Assembly (NCBI GenBank): GCA_017645765.1
Contig: JAGCNV010000026.1
Span: 124,001 to 188,000, forward strand
Length of the DNA: 64,000 nt
Direction: 5' to 3'
Source of the DNA: a bacterium
GTDB lineage: Bacteria; UBP6; UBA1177
A program made the position numbers and the translations under genes. The notes under the pieces are model-generated. The model was not told where the DNA came from. It saw nothing but the letters and a program-made list of their open reading frames with translations, and did no database searches. Positions within the stretch are counted from its first letter, which is position 1. Each line of letters opens with the position of its first letter. Positions 1,350 through 11,008 of this stretch are shown here, piece after piece.

Positions 1350-1535
1350 TTGAATTTATTTTCAAGATTCGTAAAATATAACGTTTTTTATTTGTCGTCT
1401 CAGGAGGAACTCATGAAAAAACTCCTTCTTTTACTTATTGCTCTGATATTTTTAGTCGTTTCGTGCAGCAGCTCGAAAAAAGCAGAAAACGATACCGACA
1501 TTTTGCCGGATGAGGATGCGACGGATGTTGATGAG
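1350..1535 (+). repeat. Direct duplication, copy 1 (leader plus signal peptide)
   Basis: This segment matches 3411-3596 at a constant offset of 2061 bp with no indels and few mismatches. It covers about 60 bp of untranslated leader, the AGGAGG ribosome site, the signal peptide and the first acidic residues of two adjacent lipoprotein genes. Similarity stops sharply at its upstream edge, where different repeat sequence precedes each copy. Confidence 0.85.
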
Positions 1536-3176
1536 GATAATCTGCAACCGGATGAGGATGTGACGGATGTCGATGAGGATAATCTGCAACCGGATGAAGA
1601 CAACGGCGGCACCGGACCTTCTTTCGTTAATATCTGCACGGGACTTACAAAGTGTTACAACAACGAAAAAGAGATAAAATGCCCGAAACAGGGTAAAGAT
1701 TTCTACGGTCAGGATGCTAACTTCGCAAAACTAGGGAAATGTGTTCCGCGAAAGTTTTCTGTTGACAGTTCTATCGGAAACGAACCGGTCGTCATTGACG
1801 AAGTAACAGGACTTGAATGGTCTCAGAGCTTTTTCGAAATCGGAAATTATGCGGAGGCTTCCGATTACTGCAAAAATCTGGAATACGGCGGACATAATGA
1901 CTGGAGAGCACCAACAGTCAAGGAACTTTTTTCAATTGTTGACTGGAGCAGATACGATCCGGCAATAGACACAGATTATTTTCCGAAAACACCGTCAGCG
2001 AATTTTTTGGCTTTATCGGCAGACGACCGGTACACGTGGATTGTCAATTTTTCAAATGGAGCGACACGTACGACCTCAAATCTAAGCGACAAAATTTATT
2101 TGCGCTGCGTCAGAGGCAGCGATTCATTCTGGAAAGTAGAAATCCTGTCGGATTACGGCGGTCCGGAAATCTATTACATCAACTACAATTCACGAGAAAA
2201 CAAAAAATCCGAAATTTTCATGGGAGGACTCCGTCCGTATGCACCAACTTGGGAAGAGGCTTTGAAGTACTGCAATAACCTGACTTTAGCCGGAATTTCA
2301 AACTGGAGACTTCCAAACATAAACGAACTAATGTTTTTTCTGTTTCATATCGGCGGAGGAAATTCTTCCTACTGGTCATCGACTACATACGCCGAAGATC
2401 CGTCCGGATCATGGATATTCAAATATGGTTCAAGTATTTCAGCAGAACCAAAAAACAGCAATCAGGACAATATTATTGTATTATGCGTGGCTGATGCTCC
2501 GTGTGAAAAAGGACTTGCATGGACAGGAACAGATTGCGTGAATTTCTGCGATCCTAACCCGTGCAAAGAGATGGAACATTCAAACGGAAAATGCGAATTG
2601 AATTTTTATTCCAAGCTCGACAAAGATTCCTTTATTTGCGGATGCAACGAAGAGGAAGGTGCTTTCTGGAATTTCTGGCAGGAAAAATGTGTCACGCCAT
2701 GTGAACCCAATCCATGCGAAAACTATGAACATTCCAATGGAGTCTGCACAATACATAAAGAGTTGCCGACTTACCCGGACAATATTCAGGAGTATAGCTA
2801 TTACTGCGGTTGCGATGAACCTTATTACTGGGTTGACAGACAAATCGGCTGCGTAAACGGTTGTATCCCCAACCATTGTGAAAACGTAGAACATTCAACC
2901 GGAGGATGCTATCCGGGTGATCTCGGCTGGTATTCATGCGAATGTGAAGAAGGATACGAATGGGATTGGAGCGATTCCTGTGTCAGTATCTGCGATGACG
3001 GTTACCTGTGGGACGGTTTTCAATGTGCCCCCGTTTGTGAGCCAAACAGATGCGAATATATAGAACATACAACAGGCGAGTGCTATCAGACAGGCAGCAA
3101 TATGTTCGGTTGTGACTGCGAGGAAGGCTATCACTGGGCATACTTTGACTGCGAAAAAGATCCTGAAGAGGATTAA
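1413..3176 (+). CDS. DUF1566 (Lcl_C) lipoprotein with EGF-like tail, 587 residues
   Basis: The ATG at 1413 follows AGGAGG and begins the signal MKKLLLLLIALIFLVVSC, with the lipidated cysteine at 18; an in-frame TTG at 1350 is ignored. An Asp/Glu-rich linker with DEDVTDVDEDN repeats follows. Next comes a header (NICTGL...CY...GQDANFA, about residues 70-110), then two DUF1566 domains recognised by NDWRAPTVKEL and NWRLPNINEL, and then four or five short EGF-like units (CxPNxCxxxEH...CxCxEGYxW). DUF1566 is the C-terminal domain of the Legionella adhesin Lcl, so a surface adhesion role is plausible but inferred. It is the first of a tandem pair and lacks a second header-pair unit present in its neighbour. 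Confidence 0.85.
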   Translation: MKKLLLLLIALIFLVVSCSSSKKAENDTDILPDEDATDVDEDNLQPDEDVTDVDEDNLQPDEDNGGTGPSFVNICTGLTKCYNNEKEIKCPKQGKDFYGQDANFAKLGKCVPRKFSVDSSIGNEPVVIDEVTGLEWSQSFFEIGNYAEASDYCKNLEYGGHNDWRAPTVKELFSIVDWSRYDPAIDTDYFPKTPSANFLALSADDRYTWIVNFSNGATRTTSNLSDKIYLRCVRGSDSFWKVEILSDYGGPEIYYINYNSRENKKSEIFMGGLRPYAPTWEEALKYCNNLTLAGISNWRLPNINELMFFLFHIGGGNSSYWSSTTYAEDPSGSWIFKYGSSISAEPKNSNQDNIIVLCVADAPCEKGLAWTGTDCVNFCDPNPCKEMEHSNGKCELNFYSKLDKDSFICGCNEEEGAFWNFWQEKCVTPCEPNPCENYEHSNGVCTIHKELPTYPDNIQEYSYYCGCDEPYYWVDRQIGCVNGCIPNHCENVEHSTGGCYPGDLGWYSCECEEGYEWDWSDSCVSICDDGYLWDGFQCAPVCEPNRCEYIEHTTGECYQTGSNMFGCDCEEGYHWAYFDCEKDPEED

Positions 3177-3410: not shown

Positions 3411-3596
3411 TTGAATTTATTTTCAAAATTCCTAAAATATAACGTTTTTTATTTGTCGTCTCAGGAGGAACTCATGAAAAAACTCCTTCTTCTACTTATT
3501 GCTCTGATATTTTTAGTTGTTTCGTGCAGCGGATCGAAAAAAGCAGAGAACGATGCGGATTTAATGCCGGATGAAGATGCAGTGGATGTTGATGAA
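3411..3596 (+). repeat. Direct duplication, copy 2 (leader plus signal peptide)
   Basis: Partner of the segment at 1350-1535. It abuts the 32-bp repeats on its left and carries the leader, AGGAGG and signal peptide of the second lipoprotein. A shorter piece of the same signal-peptide DNA reappears at 6390-6420 in the pseudogene. Confidence 0.85.
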
Positions 3597-6392
3597 ACCG
3601 ATGAAGACGATGAAGACGCTATCGCTGATGACGATGAGATTGAAGATATAGATCTGTGCGAGCCGGATCCATGCGAAAATTTCGCCAACGTTGACGGGAC
3701 CTGTCTCAACAAAGAAGACGGTTCTTTCGAGTGCGGCTGTCTTGAAGGATATTTCTGGGCCAATCCCGGATGTAAAAAAATAACTTTCGCCAATATCTGC
3801 ACGGGGCAGAAAACTTGTTACAACAGAGATGTCAATATGAAATGTTCCAAAGAAGGAGAAGATTTTTACGGTCAGGATGCGCATTATGCCAAAAAAGGTT
3901 TTTGTATTCCGAAAAATTTATCTTCAACAACAGCGTCTTATAGCGAAGGTCTCACTTTAGACAACAATTTAAAGATCGAATGGTTACGCAAAACTGCAGA
4001 TTCGACCTATAGCTGGGATGAAGCTGTGAAATATTGTGAAGAACTTGAATATGCCGGTCACGACGACTGGCGGCTGCCGTCGCCTAAAGAGCTGATGTTT
4101 GCCGGAACTCTACTGAATCCTGTAAAGTATTTATGGTCGTCACAAGGCAGCAACGACACATCCGCATGGAAAATCCAGACCAGTTCAAAATATTTAAGCA
4201 CGGCCAAAAAGAGTGAAACAAACGATGTGCGCTGTGTCCGAGGAGAACGGCCGGAAATCCCGCGGCTCTATGAAATTCAGGACAGAAATATGGTTTTTGA
4301 TCCTGTGAACGGTTTGTCGTGGGATACCTCATATACCGGCAGAAAATCATGGATGGAGGCTCTTGCCTACTGCGAGAACTCGACTCATGCAGGTTTTTCC
4401 GACTGGAGAGTGCCCAACATCAACGAACTTCTCTCGCTCGTGAATTATGTCAAAGATGATCCCGATTCGGATTTTCCATATTCAGCGCACAATTTCGGAT
4501 ATGATATGTGGTGGTCGTCAACGACTCTTGATGCCGGTTCAGAATATGCAAGCTATGCCCGGACCGCCGTCATTTACACTGGAGAGACATCAAGCACCGT
4601 CAAATACGACGAAGCCCGTGTTATCTGTGTCAGAAACGAACCGTGCAGACAGGGTTATTTTTTGCATGATAAAAAATGCGTCGAATCACCGTGCAATGAC
4701 GATCCTTGCATAAACATCGAACACTCCGACGGAATCTGCCATCTGGACTATTCCGGCAGTCACTTCTGCGGATGTGTTGAAAACTACTTCTGGGACGGTA
4801 ACAAATGCGTAAATCCGTGCGATTCGGAGCCGTGCAAAAATGCCAAACATTCGGATCAAAAGTGTAAACCGGTTGACGCATTCCGCTACAGTTGCGGCTG
4901 CACAGGGAACTATCATTGGTGGAATGAAGATGCAGGCTGCATTGAAAAACAGCCTTTTTCTGGAAATATCTGCACCGGCCAGACAAAGTGCTATAGTAAC
5001 GAAGAAACAATGGAATGTCCTTCGGAAGGAGAGGATTTCTTCGGGCAGGATGCGAACTATGCTGAGCTTGAAGTCTGCATTCCGCAGAATTTTTTAATCG
5101 ACGACACCGTAAAAAGCGAACCGACAGTAGTTGATCTCAATACCAAACTTGAGTGGCAGCAGACATTCTCCGAAGCGATAACAGGTTGTTATTACCCGTG
5201 TGATGAGGCCGTTGATTACTGCGAAAACCTGAATTACGGAGGACACGACGACTGGAGACTGCCGACAATACTGGAACTTCATACGATCGTGGACAGCGAA
5301 AAGGTAAATCCTGCTACAAACACAAATTATTTCCCGAATACGCCGTCGGAATATTTTATGTCAGAATCATCGAGTCTCTCATTATATGCATCGGGAGGGC
5401 CACATGATCCGTCACAAGAGGGCACAAGATCTTATTGGTTCGTCGATTTTTCGACAGGAATTTCAACGATTTCTCCAACAAAAGACTCTCATATTCGTTG
5501 TGTCAGAGGCGAAAAGTTGCCGAAAAAGACTTCCTATATTCTTGCCGGCAACAATAAAAGAGGTGCGGAAATAGCCTTCTATTCAAACGGAACTTTGATC
5601 TGGCAGGCAGAAACAAGATCCTACGGATGGCAGAACGCTCTTAAATACTGTGAGAATCTGAACCTGGCCGGACTAGTAAACTGGAGACTGCCGAACAAAA
5701 ACGAATTACTTGAGTATTTTACGCCGTGCGGCATCTATTCGGTGTCTTATTATATGGGCTATTGGTATGATTACTATCCGTCCAAATACCACTGGTCATC
5801 CACGACAGTTTACAACAAACCGGAAAAAGCATGGATTGTTAACTACGGAGACTGTCTTGGATACGCCCACTACGATAGCTTTCAGGACAAAACAGATTCA
5901 TACCTCATCCATACGCGCTGTGTCACCGACAATCCATGTTTCAAAGGCGAAATATGGAACGGTGAAAGCTGCGTGAAAGAAAACCCGTGCGAACCGAACC
6001 CGTGCAAAGAGATGTATTACATAACCGGAAACTGCATTATAAGCTCAAAAGAAACTAACGGCTATTTCTGCGAATGTTCGGAAAATTCGTTCTGGAGTTC
6101 CGATGAAAAGAGGTGCATCAGAACCTGCGGCGGAAGAAACCCGTGCATATACGATGCATCACATACCGACCAACAATGCTACGAAGACGAAAAAGGGGAA
6201 TTCTACTGCGGCTGCGTTGAGCCTTACTACTGGAACTCAGAAAAGCACACTTGCTCTAAAAAATGTGAAACCGATCCGTGTGCCGACAAAGAAAACAGCG
6301 ACGGACACTGTTCCGATGACACAGAACACGGATATGTGTGCGGCTGTATCGAAGGTTATACCTGGAATTTCTCGGATGGAGAGTGCCAGTGA
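3474..6392 (+). CDS. DUF1566 (Lcl_C) lipoprotein with two header units, 972 residues
   Basis: The ATG at 3474 follows AGGAGG; the signal peptide is nearly identical to that of the preceding gene, with the lipobox cysteine at 18. The order is acidic linker, one EGF-like unit (CEPDPCENFANVDGTC), header 1 (NICTGQKTCY, near residue 107), a DUF1566 pair (DDWRLPSPKEL, SDWRVPNINEL), EGF-like units, header 2 (near residue 498), a second pair (DDWRLPTILEL, NWRLPNKNEL), and EGF-like units to the end. The second domain of each pair carries WWSSTT or WSSTT. It is likely an outer-membrane-anchored surface protein. The stop codon overlaps a GTG that starts a truncated copy of the same signal peptide. Confidence 0.87.
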   Translation: MKKLLLLLIALIFLVVSCSGSKKAENDADLMPDEDAVDVDETDEDDEDAIADDDEIEDIDLCEPDPCENFANVDGTCLNKEDGSFECGCLEGYFWANPGCKKITFANICTGQKTCYNRDVNMKCSKEGEDFYGQDAHYAKKGFCIPKNLSSTTASYSEGLTLDNNLKIEWLRKTADSTYSWDEAVKYCEELEYAGHDDWRLPSPKELMFAGTLLNPVKYLWSSQGSNDTSAWKIQTSSKYLSTAKKSETNDVRCVRGERPEIPRLYEIQDRNMVFDPVNGLSWDTSYTGRKSWMEALAYCENSTHAGFSDWRVPNINELLSLVNYVKDDPDSDFPYSAHNFGYDMWWSSTTLDAGSEYASYARTAVIYTGETSSTVKYDEARVICVRNEPCRQGYFLHDKKCVESPCNDDPCINIEHSDGICHLDYSGSHFCGCVENYFWDGNKCVNPCDSEPCKNAKHSDQKCKPVDAFRYSCGCTGNYHWWNEDAGCIEKQPFSGNICTGQTKCYSNEETMECPSEGEDFFGQDANYAELEVCIPQNFLIDDTVKSEPTVVDLNTKLEWQQTFSEAITGCYYPCDEAVDYCENLNYGGHDDWRLPTILELHTIVDSEKVNPATNTNYFPNTPSEYFMSESSSLSLYASGGPHDPSQEGTRSYWFVDFSTGISTISPTKDSHIRCVRGEKLPKKTSYILAGNNKRGAEIAFYSNGTLIWQAETRSYGWQNALKYCENLNLAGLVNWRLPNKNELLEYFTPCGIYSVSYYMGYWYDYYPSKYHWSSTTVYNKPEKAWIVNYGDCLGYAHYDSFQDKTDSYLIHTRCVTDNPCFKGEIWNGESCVKENPCEPNPCKEMYYITGNCIISSKETNGYFCECSENSFWSSDEKRCIRTCGGRNPCIYDASHTDQQCYEDEKGEFYCGCVEPYYWNSEKHTCSKKCETDPCADKENSDGHCSDDTEHGYVCGCIEGYTWNFSDGECQ

Positions 6393-6816
6393 AAAAACTC
6401 CTTCTTCTACTTATCGCTCTTTTATTGGAAAACCGTTAAATTTTGCCAAAAAATTCATGGAAAACCGTTAAGTTTGTTTTTCAAGTTTCGGCCGATAAAA
6501 AATCTTTGATGCTTGGGAAAGATAACATGCTGGAAACAATGACTTTTTCAATCAAAGGGTGCGGAAACTTCCAGGATGCTGAAATAGCACTCGAAGATAA
6601 TCCGAATCTCAAGATTTTCTCGCCTGATGCAACTGCGTCGATTCCTATTGGGGAGACGGAAGATACAGCGAATTAGGCGATGTCGGCTGGTTATGGTCTT
6701 CCTTTGTTGTGTCCGGTTATTCACATCTGGCATGGGGTGTCAATTTCTATTACGGTCGGGTGTATTACGAAGGTAAGTCAACATATAAAAACGTCTATGT
6801 CCGTTGCGTAAGATAG
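6389..6816 (+). pseudogene. Remnant of a third DUF1566 lipoprotein gene
   Basis: A GTG at 6389 overlaps the previous stop and starts a copy of the family signal peptide (KKLLLLLIALLLENR) that ends after 17 codons. A TGGAAAACCGTTAA direct repeat lies just downstream. An unassignable open stretch follows (6443-6676). From about 6628 another frame encodes a clear C-terminal half of a DUF1566 domain: VGWLWSS, then AWGVNFYYG, then VYVRCVR and a stop at 6816. Start and end of a family gene are therefore present, but the middle is deleted and frameshifted. Confidence 0.75.
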
Positions 6817-6925
6817 GACGCAGTTTTCTAAAGTAAAAATATAACTTTTTTATAAATTCGTGCTATAAAGGCGCGTTTTAGTTGTTTTTAAACTTTTAAG
6901 AAATTTTTATATTCCGGAGGTTCCA

Positions 6926-9900
6926 ATGTCAGGCGTGATAAAGACTTCTGAGGCTTTGAAAGTCAATCTGGCCGAAACTTTTGTTGCTGGTTACGAATTT
7001 TCCGAGCAGGAAAAGTTCATTCTGAGTGCAGTCGAAAAACATCCGCTTCTTGAAAAAAGGATGAGAACTTTCTTCCTCGAACTCAACCATCCGTTTCCCA
7101 ATTTTACCGAGGTTATTGAGGCTTACCGCTGGATAACACTTGAAAACATGTGGGTTTTTGCTGATCTTGAAGAGAGTGACAGGCTGCTGAAGCTTCTCGG
7201 TGACTATTTTATGCAGATTTTTTCTCAGAAGCTCGATATTCCGCAGAGAAACAGGCTCCGTCAGACGATTTTCAACGTTCTCGAACTGCTTTACAAAATC
7301 ATGCAGAGCAGCAAAATTTCCGATGATGTTTTCAATTCTTACCTCGATATAACCGAAACGGTTCTTGCAGACGGCAATCCCGGACTCATGGAAGCATCGA
7401 GTTCGCTCAAAAAATATGTCGCCGAAATCTGCAAGGACGAGCGTTTCTGCGGAAGAATCTTCAAAATGCTCAAGCGGGTCATGACGATAAATCTGGACTA
7501 CTGGAAAAACATCCAGTCGTTCTCGGACTGGCTTGAAAACAGGAAAATCGAGCACGGCGACGAGGCGTTGGAAATCGAAAATGCTATCCTTTCGCAGTTT
7601 CCGCCCGAGCTTTTCACTGAGTGCGAAGAGGGGATAGAGAAGGCCGAAAAGTGCGAAGACTTCTTCAAACTGCCGGACTACACTTTCTTTACTGACAGGT
7701 TCCGCAACACGATCGACTTCATACCGACGCCGATATGCAAAATCTACTACATTTTCTACCTTCTTGATTTCTCTTCGATGGAAAGTCTGCGCGAATACCT
7801 TCTTTTCGACCTCAACAGGACTCTGAAAATCGTTTCGATTGATGATGCGGGCGAGGCTAAACGCTTCATTTCGCGTATGTTCGACTTCTTCAAACCGGTC
7901 CGCGAGCTTTTCCAGAGCGCGATCCTTGACTGTGTTAAAACGCTCGGTAAAGAGATCGTAAAACGCGGCAGTGCGGCGATATGTGACCACTTTTTTGATG
8001 CCGTTATCCGTTTCGGATTTGTTTATCCCGAACTTAAAGGTGTCAACTCCGACTGGCAGATGATCGTTGACAAAAACCACGTCAAAAACATCAGAACATG
8101 GCTTGAAATAATCGAAGTTAACCCGTCGAAAAGCACGAAACTTCTTTCTGCGCTCCTTGTAAACCTCAGGATCGGCGGCGTTTTTATTTCCGATACCGAC
8201 CTTTTCCAGAGCGATGTCACGAAGTTTTTGAACAGCCAGATCGCGCCTGCTTACCACATTGCGCGTCAGATCGCCGTTCTGTTCCCGGTTTACTTCAACG
8301 AAATCGGTGCCGAGGGCGAACTCAGAAAGATTTCGACCGCGATTGACGAAATCTGCCACAGAAAGGATTTACTCACTCACTTTTTGAGAAAGCAGATCCA
8401 CGCAGAGAGCAACAATACCCACATCCAGCTTGCAAAAGACGTCTTCATTTTCTGGCTCACCGGCAAAAAGGAACATCTTCAGAATAAGATTCCGAACGAG
8501 ATTTATGAAACTCTCGAACCGGCAGGCGAAATGTACGAGGGTCTGCATGAAGTCGCCCGTTTCGTAACGAGCAGAGTTAGAGGCGACTACGAATCTCTTT
8601 TTACGATGAAACCTGCTGAAGTAGAGAAAATCATCGCCGATTTCGGAGCAGGTCATGAAGTAGAACAGAAGAAGGTCGGATATCTTTTCAACATTTATCT
8701 GCTTCTCAAGGAAAAATATTATCTCAATCCTGGCGATATTGCTAAAAAACTTAAGAAAATCACATATATACATCAGGCTACGATAGATGAGTTCGAAGCT
8801 GCGATGACTGCCGAGGACTGGAAAAGCGCAGTCAGAATCGCGTTTAAAATCATGTCGGCGCTCAAAAAGACCGTTCTTTCGGAAGAGCAGACAGAAGGCG
8901 TTGAAAACATCTACTATAAACGCCATATCGCGATAGGAATTCCTTCGATGTACGGCGAATACCGCGAACCGAAATTCGAGGCTTTAGGTATGATCTACAG
9001 GATGGAACAGCTTGTTTCGACGATGGTCGAAAAGCTGGTTTCAACTACGAAACTTCCGTATGTTTCAGCCGACAATCTCAGAGAAACCTGCGAAATTCTC
9101 GAGCTTTTCAGGGAAGGTCTGGAACTCGGCGGCATAACGAGCGAAAGTTTCAATTCCGATCTCAAAATGCTTGAATACAGCCTTGTTTCGTCAAGTTTCT
9201 CGCTGCACCAGTACACCAACATTTTCGAGTTCTTTGCCGAGGATTTGAGCAAAATCGTTTACGACTATTTCCTCGGAATCCACGATTCGAACCTCAAAAT
9301 CGTTCTCGAACAGTATATCGAAAAGCATAATCTCACCGTTTCGTCGGAAAAGGACAAGGAGAAGATCATCCACAAAAAGAGCGAGGAATTCTACCGCGAT
9401 ATCATTTCGTCGTCGTTCCTTATGCAGCAGATCGACAGTCTCATAAACTATCTTCTTTCGATTTTGCACGGCATTCCGAAGAGTCTGACTCAGGAAGATA
9501 TCCACATGATTATGACATACAAGCGCAAATCGATAATTTCCGAAATCGACAAGAAGGACGACGAGCTCGACAATCAGGTCTTCTTCGGTGCGAAAGGCTA
9601 TTTCCTGAAAAAAATCAAGTCGTACGGAATGCCTGTTCCACACGGATTCATTCTCACGACAGAGCTTTTCAGACGTCGCGAGGCTTTGATGAAACACCCT
9701 GAAATCGAGAAGGAAATTTATACGACGATATCTGATGAACTTGGTATTCTTGAGGAAAAAACAGGACTTCAGTACGGCAACCCGAACAATCCGCTCATGC
9801 TTTCGGTAAGAAGCGGTTCGGCAATGTCGATGCCCGGCGCGATGAACACTTTCCTCAATGTCGGAATGAACGATGAATTTGTCGAACAGCTCGCAAAAAA

Positions 9901-11008
9901 AGAGAATTACGGCTGGACTTCGTGGGACTGTTACCGCCGTCTGATCCAGACATGGGGCATGAATTTCGGTATCGACCGTGACCTTTTCGATGCTGTCATT
10001 GCCGATTTCAAAAAGGTCTACAAAGTCGAGAAAAAGATCGGTTTCAAGCCTGAAGTCATGAAACTCGTCGCCAAGGAATACATGAAGATCCTCGACAGCC
10101 AGAAAGTCAAATTCGAGCAGAATCTCCACAAGCAGCTTTTCACTTCGATCCACGCGGTTTTTGATTCGTGGAATTCGCGCCGCGCTTTGGTTTACCGCGA
10201 CAAACTCCACATTGCAAGCGAGTGGGGAACGGCTGTCATCGTTCAGAAAATGGTGCTCGGAAACATCAACTACGACTCCGGAACGGGCGTCGTTTTCACG
10301 CGGGAACCGAACGGCAGAGGCAGAAAGGTATGTCTTTACGGCGACTTCGTAATGTGTTCTCAGGGCGAAGACATCGTCGGCGGACTTGTTCACCCGTATC
10401 CTGTTTCAGAAAAGCAGAGACTTGAGATGAAAAACGCTCCGGATATCAGCATGGAAAAAGATTTTCCTGAGATATATTCGGCACTTAATGATATTTCAGT
10501 CGAACTTATCAACAAGCGCGGTTTCGGTCATCAGGAGATTGAATTTACTTTTGAAACTTCAAAAAGACAGGATCTGCACATACTCCAGATCCGTTCGTAC
10601 CACCAGAACGACCTGATGCAGGAAGAGCTTGTTCCCGACAATCTGACGATGATAGGCGAGGGAACGGGCATCGGAAACAACGTCCTTACCGGAAGAGTCG
10701 TCTTCTCGATGGAAGACATCGAAAAGTGCAAAAAACTCTATCCCGGCGAAAAAATCATCGTTATGCGTCCCGACACCGTCAGCGACGATATCGACATGAT
10801 TTTTGAAGCGGACGGACTTCTCACTTCCCGCGGCGGAGCTACGTCTCATGCGGCTGTCACGGCAGTACGTCTCGGCAAGATCGGTGTTGTAAACTGCAAG
10901 TCACTCGTTCTTGACGAAATCAACAAAACCTTCACCTTCGGCGGCGATACAAGAAAAGTTCTAAGCACACTCACGATCGACGGCAGAAGAGGATTTATCT
11001 ACGGTTAG
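6926..11008 (+). CDS. Large PEP/pyruvate dikinase-like phosphotransferase, 1360 residues
   Basis: The ATG at 6926 follows CCGGAGG. Residues 1 to about 880 are helical, acidic and unlike any family I recognise. From about residue 884 there is a PPDK-type ATP-grasp region (GAKGYFLKKIKSYGMPVPHG, then VRSGSAMSMPGAMNTFLN near 960 and GVVFTREPNGRGR near 1120). The swivelling phosphohistidine domain follows, RGGATSHAAVTA with the likely catalytic His at 1308. The C-terminal TIM barrel that binds pyruvate or PEP in PPDK and PEP synthase is absent; the protein ends about 50 residues after the histidine. The final acceptor is therefore not evident. Rifampicin phosphotransferase and glucan water dikinase also combine these two modules with other partners. 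A TATAAA-GGCGCG -10 region lies at 6864-6875. Confidence 0.8.
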   Translation: MSGVIKTSEALKVNLAETFVAGYEFSEQEKFILSAVEKHPLLEKRMRTFFLELNHPFPNFTEVIEAYRWITLENMWVFADLEESDRLLKLLGDYFMQIFSQKLDIPQRNRLRQTIFNVLELLYKIMQSSKISDDVFNSYLDITETVLADGNPGLMEASSSLKKYVAEICKDERFCGRIFKMLKRVMTINLDYWKNIQSFSDWLENRKIEHGDEALEIENAILSQFPPELFTECEEGIEKAEKCEDFFKLPDYTFFTDRFRNTIDFIPTPICKIYYIFYLLDFSSMESLREYLLFDLNRTLKIVSIDDAGEAKRFISRMFDFFKPVRELFQSAILDCVKTLGKEIVKRGSAAICDHFFDAVIRFGFVYPELKGVNSDWQMIVDKNHVKNIRTWLEIIEVNPSKSTKLLSALLVNLRIGGVFISDTDLFQSDVTKFLNSQIAPAYHIARQIAVLFPVYFNEIGAEGELRKISTAIDEICHRKDLLTHFLRKQIHAESNNTHIQLAKDVFIFWLTGKKEHLQNKIPNEIYETLEPAGEMYEGLHEVARFVTSRVRGDYESLFTMKPAEVEKIIADFGAGHEVEQKKVGYLFNIYLLLKEKYYLNPGDIAKKLKKITYIHQATIDEFEAAMTAEDWKSAVRIAFKIMSALKKTVLSEEQTEGVENIYYKRHIAIGIPSMYGEYREPKFEALGMIYRMEQLVSTMVEKLVSTTKLPYVSADNLRETCEILELFREGLELGGITSESFNSDLKMLEYSLVSSSFSLHQYTNIFEFFAEDLSKIVYDYFLGIHDSNLKIVLEQYIEKHNLTVSSEKDKEKIIHKKSEEFYRDIISSSFLMQQIDSLINYLLSILHGIPKSLTQEDIHMIMTYKRKSIISEIDKKDDELDNQVFFGAKGYFLKKIKSYGMPVPHGFILTTELFRRREALMKHPEIEKEIYTTISDELGILEEKTGLQYGNPNNPLMLSVRSGSAMSMPGAMNTFLNVGMNDEFVEQLAKKENYGWTSWDCYRRLIQTWGMNFGIDRDLFDAVIADFKKVYKVEKKIGFKPEVMKLVAKEYMKILDSQKVKFEQNLHKQLFTSIHAVFDSWNSRRALVYRDKLHIASEWGTAVIVQKMVLGNINYDSGTGVVFTREPNGRGRKVCLYGDFVMCSQGEDIVGGLVHPYPVSEKQRLEMKNAPDISMEKDFPEIYSALNDISVELINKRGFGHQEIEFTFETSKRQDLHILQIRSYHQNDLMQEELVPDNLTMIGEGTGIGNNVLTGRVVFSMEDIEKCKKLYPGEKIIVMRPDTVSDDIDMIFEADGLLTSRGGATSHAAVTAVRLGKIGVVNCKSLVLDEINKTFTFGGDTRKVLSTLTIDGRRGFIYG

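Follow-up and report, generated by a model that had tools for sequence, protein, structure and literature searches.

The closest described relatives of the protein considered here combine an ATP-grasp domain with a phosphohistidine domain. Pyruvate phosphate dikinase (PPDK; TIGR01828) has the two in that order together with a phosphoenolpyruvate (PEP)/pyruvate barrel, and in rifampin phosphotransferase (RPH) the ATP and His domains flank the acceptor domain. RPH and the two-component HpeHI and phenylphosphate synthase pair ATP-grasp and swiveling His domains with an acceptor domain that is not a barrel, and they serve aromatic or antibiotic pathways (PMC4844700, PMC12167813). VadK (Rv1127c), a barrel-less PPDK derivative of about 50 kDa that has no large N-terminal domain and lies beside methylcitrate-cycle genes, is reported to regulate metabolic (methylcitrate) enzymes rather than to act on a small molecule (PMC13400623). 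We analyzed a window of 64,000 nucleotides (the whole stretch from position 124,001 to 188,000 of contig JAGCNV010000026.1, assembly GCA_017645765.1, lineage UBP6) and report on a gene at window positions 6926 to 11008 that encodes a dikinase-like protein. Its relatives co-occur almost obligately with a long paralogue of GAPDH, and we tentatively propose that the two form one functional unit.

The dikinase-like protein keeps the domain order, nucleotide residues, and catalytic His of PPDK but has no PEP/pyruvate barrel, carries an 880-residue domain in front, and falls in a separate clade. Like VadK, it has an ATP-grasp and a His domain without a barrel and is tied to a metabolic enzyme; unlike VadK, it has the large N-terminal domain, and its neighbor is GAPDH. 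With RPH, HpeHI, and phenylphosphate synthase it shares the general architecture, but only the ATP-grasp part matches. A sequence-only reading of this DNA had likened the protein to rifampicin phosphotransferase and glucan water dikinase, a comparison to be revised, as the domain order differs in both enzymes; VadK is the closest precedent for an ATP-grasp and His protein that lacks a barrel (PMC13400623). The predicted pair also resembles the PGK/GAPDH couple and the NADP-dependent gluconeogenic or photosynthetic GAPDHs, in that a kinase would be joined to a GAPDH-fold acyl-phosphate reductase of phosphorylating type with a predicted NADP preference. It differs in that a phosphohistidine dikinase, in place of PGK, would supply the phosphate and in that the GAPDH is 60 to 80 residues longer than, and distinct from, the ordinary copy. 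A literature search, outside of which most subscription literature lay, found nothing on the dikinase family, the dikinase-GAPDH pair, or Cloacimonas in connection with the dikinase.

A dikinase family distinct from PPDK

The dikinase gene is an open reading frame of 1360 codons that runs from an ATG start to a stop and encodes 1360 amino acids (6926 to 11008; this and all features below lie on the forward strand), as supported by Pfam, NCBIfam, PDB alignment, and relatives. A ribosome-binding site read from the sequence, GGAGG (6916 to 6920), lies five bases before the ATG. Pfam indicated PPDK_N (2e-27) and the PEP-utilizers mobile domain (2.1e-11), both within the last 480 residues, and found no PEP-barrel domain (PEP-utilizers_C) in the protein. 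Together with NCBIfam and alignment to PPDK, these matches define a PPDK-type ATP-grasp domain at residues 880 to 1225 (9563 to 10600) and a swiveling phosphohistidine domain at residues 1240 to 1359 (10643 to 11002). The best PDB relatives were PPDKs, which aligned over residues 880 to 1359. In the solved PPDK of Clostridium symbiosum, residues K22, R92, D321, E323, Q335, R337, and H455 correspond to K890, R962, E1204, E1206, Q1221, R1223, and H1308, respectively, such that Asp at PPDK position 321 is replaced by Glu. The His1308 codon (10847 to 10849) thus aligns with the phospho-His455 of PPDK and lies within a GGATSHAAV motif that is invariant among relatives, and the ATP-grasp nucleotide residues are likewise conserved in the alignments. 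The protein ends only 52 residues past His1308, and no barrel is encoded downstream within the window. Each of these features, namely the two modules, His1308, the missing barrel, and the early end, had been read correctly from the sequence alone. We conclude that, to judge by the conserved residues, the ATP and His machinery of the dikinase is intact.

To place the protein among PPDK-like enzymes, scores were compared with family cutoffs. NCBIfam grouped the ATP-grasp part with PPDK, for which it scored higher than for PEP synthase, yet the score against TIGR01828 was 343.6 bits versus an equivalog cutoff of 843.45. The score against the RPH equivalog (RIF_Ptrans_rph) was 24.9 bits versus a cutoff of 999, with the ATP-grasp part alone matching. 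Moreover, in a tree of the catalytic part, 30 family proteins formed a group apart from six PPDKs (support 100/100), and the genome of the window also encodes a true PPDK of 982 amino acids on a separate contig (G000:C16). With the barrel absent, a separate group in the tree, and a score below the cutoff, the protein is by these measures not a member of PPDK, nor, by its score, of RPH.

The dikinase gene was present in 19 of 19 genomes of the window's family, assigned by public records to UBP6 and mostly to gut or rumen samples, and it was split between contigs in three; none of nine other genomes of the phylum carried it. A profile search with the N-terminus found the dikinase in four further phyla, five in total, and the open frame in relatives was mostly about 1340 to 1440 amino acids, save for contig cuts and one overextended start. 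No viral or plasmid relatives were found when these were searched. Because the gene is kept in all 19 family genomes and in four other phyla, it is not a chance open reading frame, a fusion artifact, or a truncation. We conclude that, as aligned, the dikinase-like proteins are one monophyletic family with constant domain order in five phyla.

Co-occurrence with a long GAPDH

In every phylum with relatives, the gene directly 3′ of the dikinase encodes a GAPDH paralogue of 396 to 417 amino acids. The long GAPDH was found in 81 of 82 dikinase-bearing genomes, the exception being a genome that is 59% complete, and in 3 of the 99 that were scored as dikinase-negative. All three of the latter copies lie at contig edges: two of the contigs retain the C-terminal end of a dikinase, and the third breaks off some 100 bases 5′ of the GAPDH. 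In the phylum of genome G167 (one contig of 2,246,820 bases, which we take to be Candidatus Cloacimonas acidaminovorans), 49 of 49 dikinase genomes had the long GAPDH, directly downstream and on the same strand in 45, versus 3 of 76 in which no dikinase was detected (Fisher P ~1e-31, relatedness ignored). The corresponding counts were 18 of 19 versus 0 of 9 in the window's phylum and 14 of 14 (one cut by a contig end) versus 0 of 14 in three further phyla. Within the window's genus the pair is mostly separated, with the long GAPDH of the window's genome on another contig (G000:C67:6571-7779), whereas G004, G010, and G015 to G018 retain the adjacency. Comparison of the module loci revealed no recurring neighbor across lineages except GAPDH. 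We conclude that the dikinase and the long GAPDH co-occur near-obligately and that their genes are commonly adjacent.

A stand-alone PEP barrel was considered as a partner and rejected: no such protein was encoded in the window or in 36 module or partner loci, the only barrel found in this check being that of the true PPDK at G000:C16; a whole-genome search was not run.

Properties of the long GAPDH

The long GAPDHs retain the residues of a phosphorylating enzyme. Residues C149, H176, S148, T150, T179, T208, and R231 were kept in 32 of 32 sequences and G209 in 31 of 32, which accounts for the catalytic pair (Cys149/His176), the Pi site (S148/T150/T208/G209), and the Ps site (T179/R231). Because the catalytic and phosphate-site residues are kept, the long GAPDH is expected to act on a phosphorylated aldehyde in the manner of a phosphorylating GAPDH. 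Asp32, which binds the adenosine 2′-hydroxyl of NAD in GAPDH (PMC3728087), was absent from all 32, and an invariant Gly-Arg follows just after its position; the loss of Asp32 suggests that the long GAPDH prefers NADP. Four copies scored 290 to 313 bits against the type I GAPDH equivalog (TIGR01534), for which the cutoff is 367.

An ordinary-length GAPDH and PGK were found in most genomes whether the module was present or absent, and thus the pair supplements glycolysis and does not replace it. Replacement of PGK was rejected as a general explanation, as every one of the 25 genomes tested had PGK, which also occurred irrespective of the module. A divergent PGK of 430 amino acids is encoded in the window's genome (G000:C28:2573-3790) and in most genomes of the G167 phylum, and in the window's family it is usually additional to the ordinary PGK. 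This divergent PGK was rejected as a third component, as it is general in the G167 phylum and independent of the module.

The N-terminal region

Residues 1 to 875 had no significant match in Pfam, NCBIfam, or PDB, even with a diverse profile. The sequence-only reading had left about 880 N-terminal residues unassigned and had called for a profile search, and neither a standard acceptor domain nor any other assignment came from these databases. An AlphaFold model of residues 1 to 880 consisted almost solely of helices. A solenoid-like stretch at residues 9 to 362 (6950 to 8011) was modeled with confidence, with predicted local distance difference test (pLDDT) values mostly of 80 to 94, and is weakly conserved, with a mean column identity of about 0.3 to 0.5 in 31 sequences. 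The remainder is an orphan, all-helical core at residues 365 to 870 (8018 to 9535), which was found by profile in five phyla with no Pfam, NCBIfam, or PDB relative and which we propose as a putative acceptor or partner domain. Foldseek with the N-terminal model returned generic alpha-solenoids only (E above 0.008; TM score of ~0.1 to 0.2), and a model of residues 251 to 1360 was too poor for use (mean pLDDT of 51.6).

Conservation across the 31 sequences was uneven: residues ~361 to 512 and 641 to 692 were conserved about as well as the ATP-grasp and catalytic domains, and residues 81 to 360 were poorly conserved. Two islands of invariant alignment columns stand out, DTDLFQ...EIGAEGxxR...RKQxHxES at residues 418 to 498 (8177 to 8419) and ENIYYKRHxAxGIPSMYG at residues 658 to 692 (8897 to 9001). 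The motifs DTDLFQ, EIGAEGxxR, TxxDExxxRxD, HFxRKQxHxES, and IYxKRHxAxGIPSMYG were invariant in ten diverse sequences, and the invariant charged residues of the core are D423, D425, E459, E463, R467, D474, E475, R479, D481, H485, R488, K489, H492, E494, K665, R666, and H667. We infer that these basic and acidic clusters resemble a substrate site more than a scaffold. It had been suggested from the sequence that the N-terminus binds a new phosphate acceptor or else that the protein phosphorylates a partner; the two charged islands and the GAPDH partner are compatible with that pair of options and single out neither.

Proposed function

Coupling a kinase to a GAPDH-fold reductase whose substrate is an acyl phosphate is well established, as in PGK/GAPDH and aspartate kinase/aspartate-semialdehyde dehydrogenase. 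We favor, while holding it tentatively, the reading that the protein represents a new family of phosphohistidine dikinases and acts as one functional unit with its dedicated long GAPDH. Since GAPDH alone recurs next to the dikinase, the acceptor would most probably be a metabolite of the step that GAPDH catalyzes. ATP and inorganic phosphate would charge His1308 as in PPDK to yield AMP and pyrophosphate (PPi), because the ATP-grasp domain scores best with PPDK and not with PEP synthase. The His domain would then swivel to the conserved N-terminal core, the putative acceptor site. The best-fitting candidate for the acceptor is 3-phosphoglycerate, which would become 1,3-bisphosphoglycerate and be reduced with NADPH by the partner GAPDH to glyceraldehyde 3-phosphate. 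In this specific scheme the dikinase would pass phosphate by way of phosphohistidine to the carboxylate of 3-phosphoglycerate, with AMP and PPi as products, and so supply its dedicated NADPH-GAPDH. The scheme would amount to an AMP-forming bypass of PGK in the lower part of glycolysis/gluconeogenesis, next to the ordinary NAD-GAPDH and PGK; we regard it as possible but rather unlikely. In the alternative direction, AMP, PPi, and 1,3-bisphosphoglycerate would yield ATP.

Several points weigh against a role for the pair in metabolite phosphorylation at the GAPDH step. Any acceptor is putative, the AlphaFold model of the core is of low confidence, and the core matched no known fold. Canonical GAPDH Asp181 is Thr or Ser in the partner, and therefore the substrate could differ from glyceraldehyde 3-phosphate. 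Since PGK occurs regardless of the module, a bypass is unneeded for glycolysis as such. Finally, the VadK precedent acts on enzymes and not on a small molecule (PMC13400623), and co-occurrence alone fits regulation equally well.

Regulation of the kind attributed to VadK is accordingly the alternative to weigh first: the N-terminus would dock the long GAPDH, and the phosphohistidine domain would phosphorylate or allosterically control it in response to energy charge. VadK, with its barrel-less ATP-grasp and His domains, autophosphorylates on His and modulates nearby-encoded enzymes (PMC13400623); the GAPDH partner is fixed, and the N-terminal 360 residues are predicted to form a helical solenoid, a common protein-binding shape. 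The solenoid, however, would be the expected carrier of an interface and is the least conserved part, whereas the N-terminal islands of highest conservation resemble an active site and equal the catalytic domain in conservation. An addition of 880 residues is also large for docking, and we consider such regulation unlikely, if a real contender. Less probable again is a metabolite dikinase whose acceptor lies outside the GAPDH step, for instance glyceraldehyde, dihydroxyacetone, or glycerate on its way into the triose pool; the GAPDH would then use the product at a later point. Dikinases of the superfamily phosphorylate diverse hydroxyl groups (RPH, HpeHI, and phenylphosphate synthase; PMC12167813, PMC4844700), and the orphan nature of the core leaves room for such an acceptor, but the recurrence of GAPDH alone among neighbors across lineages favors a shared intermediate. 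A decaying or truncated PPDK that gained an unrelated N-terminus and lost enzyme function, a reading that would fit the missing barrel and the true PPDK elsewhere in the genome (G000:C16), is highly improbable and was rejected on residue conservation and phyletic spread, as the gene, mostly full length and in frame in about 80 genomes across five phyla, is monophyletic against PPDK (100/100 support), and conserves the ATP-grasp and His residues.

PPDK-like dikinases are easily annotated by the ATP-grasp domain alone, and the family described here could be called PPDK although it has no pyruvate barrel, is tied to a second GAPDH, and spans five phyla, with rumen lineages among them. Should the acceptor be part of the GAPDH step, as we favor, the pair would be a previously undescribed and energetically distinct way to drive or control the triose-phosphate/3-phosphoglycerate step beside PGK. 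If the role is regulatory, the dikinase would be a second, independent PPDK-derived controller of a central enzyme.

Neighboring genes

Other genes lie near the pair in some genomes. Downstream of the pair, G015 has NfnA/NfnB-like genes and a glutamate dehydrogenase gene (L079 10857-14775), and G167 has an Rnf-complex operon (L074 859-5945). The Rnf, NfnAB, and glutamate dehydrogenase neighbors were each found in single lineages only and may point to a link with NADPH or ferredoxin metabolism. Some lineages carry another, short GAPDH paralogue immediately 5′ of the dikinase (L071 5661-6659, L072 5047-6048, L138 5844-6848, and L143 13128-14132), and in the L071 copy several canonical residues have been lost (TCTGNC, ILHPYL). 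The dikinase of G429 is a remnant in which residues ~297 to 899 are deleted (L173 2722-3447), and that genome has no long GAPDH.

Upstream of the dikinase gene in the window are two tandem, paralogous lipoprotein genes (1350 to 3176 and 3411 to 6392) with near-identical starts (185 nucleotides, 91%), whose products contain repeated Lcl_C (DUF1566-type) domains and EGF-like Cys repeats. The two look like a cassette-like array of surface proteins. Between this array and the dikinase, positions 6383 to 6820 have a signal-peptide start (KKLLLLLIALL), broken frames, and a VRCVR-like end, and the segment looks like the remnant of another such lipoprotein.

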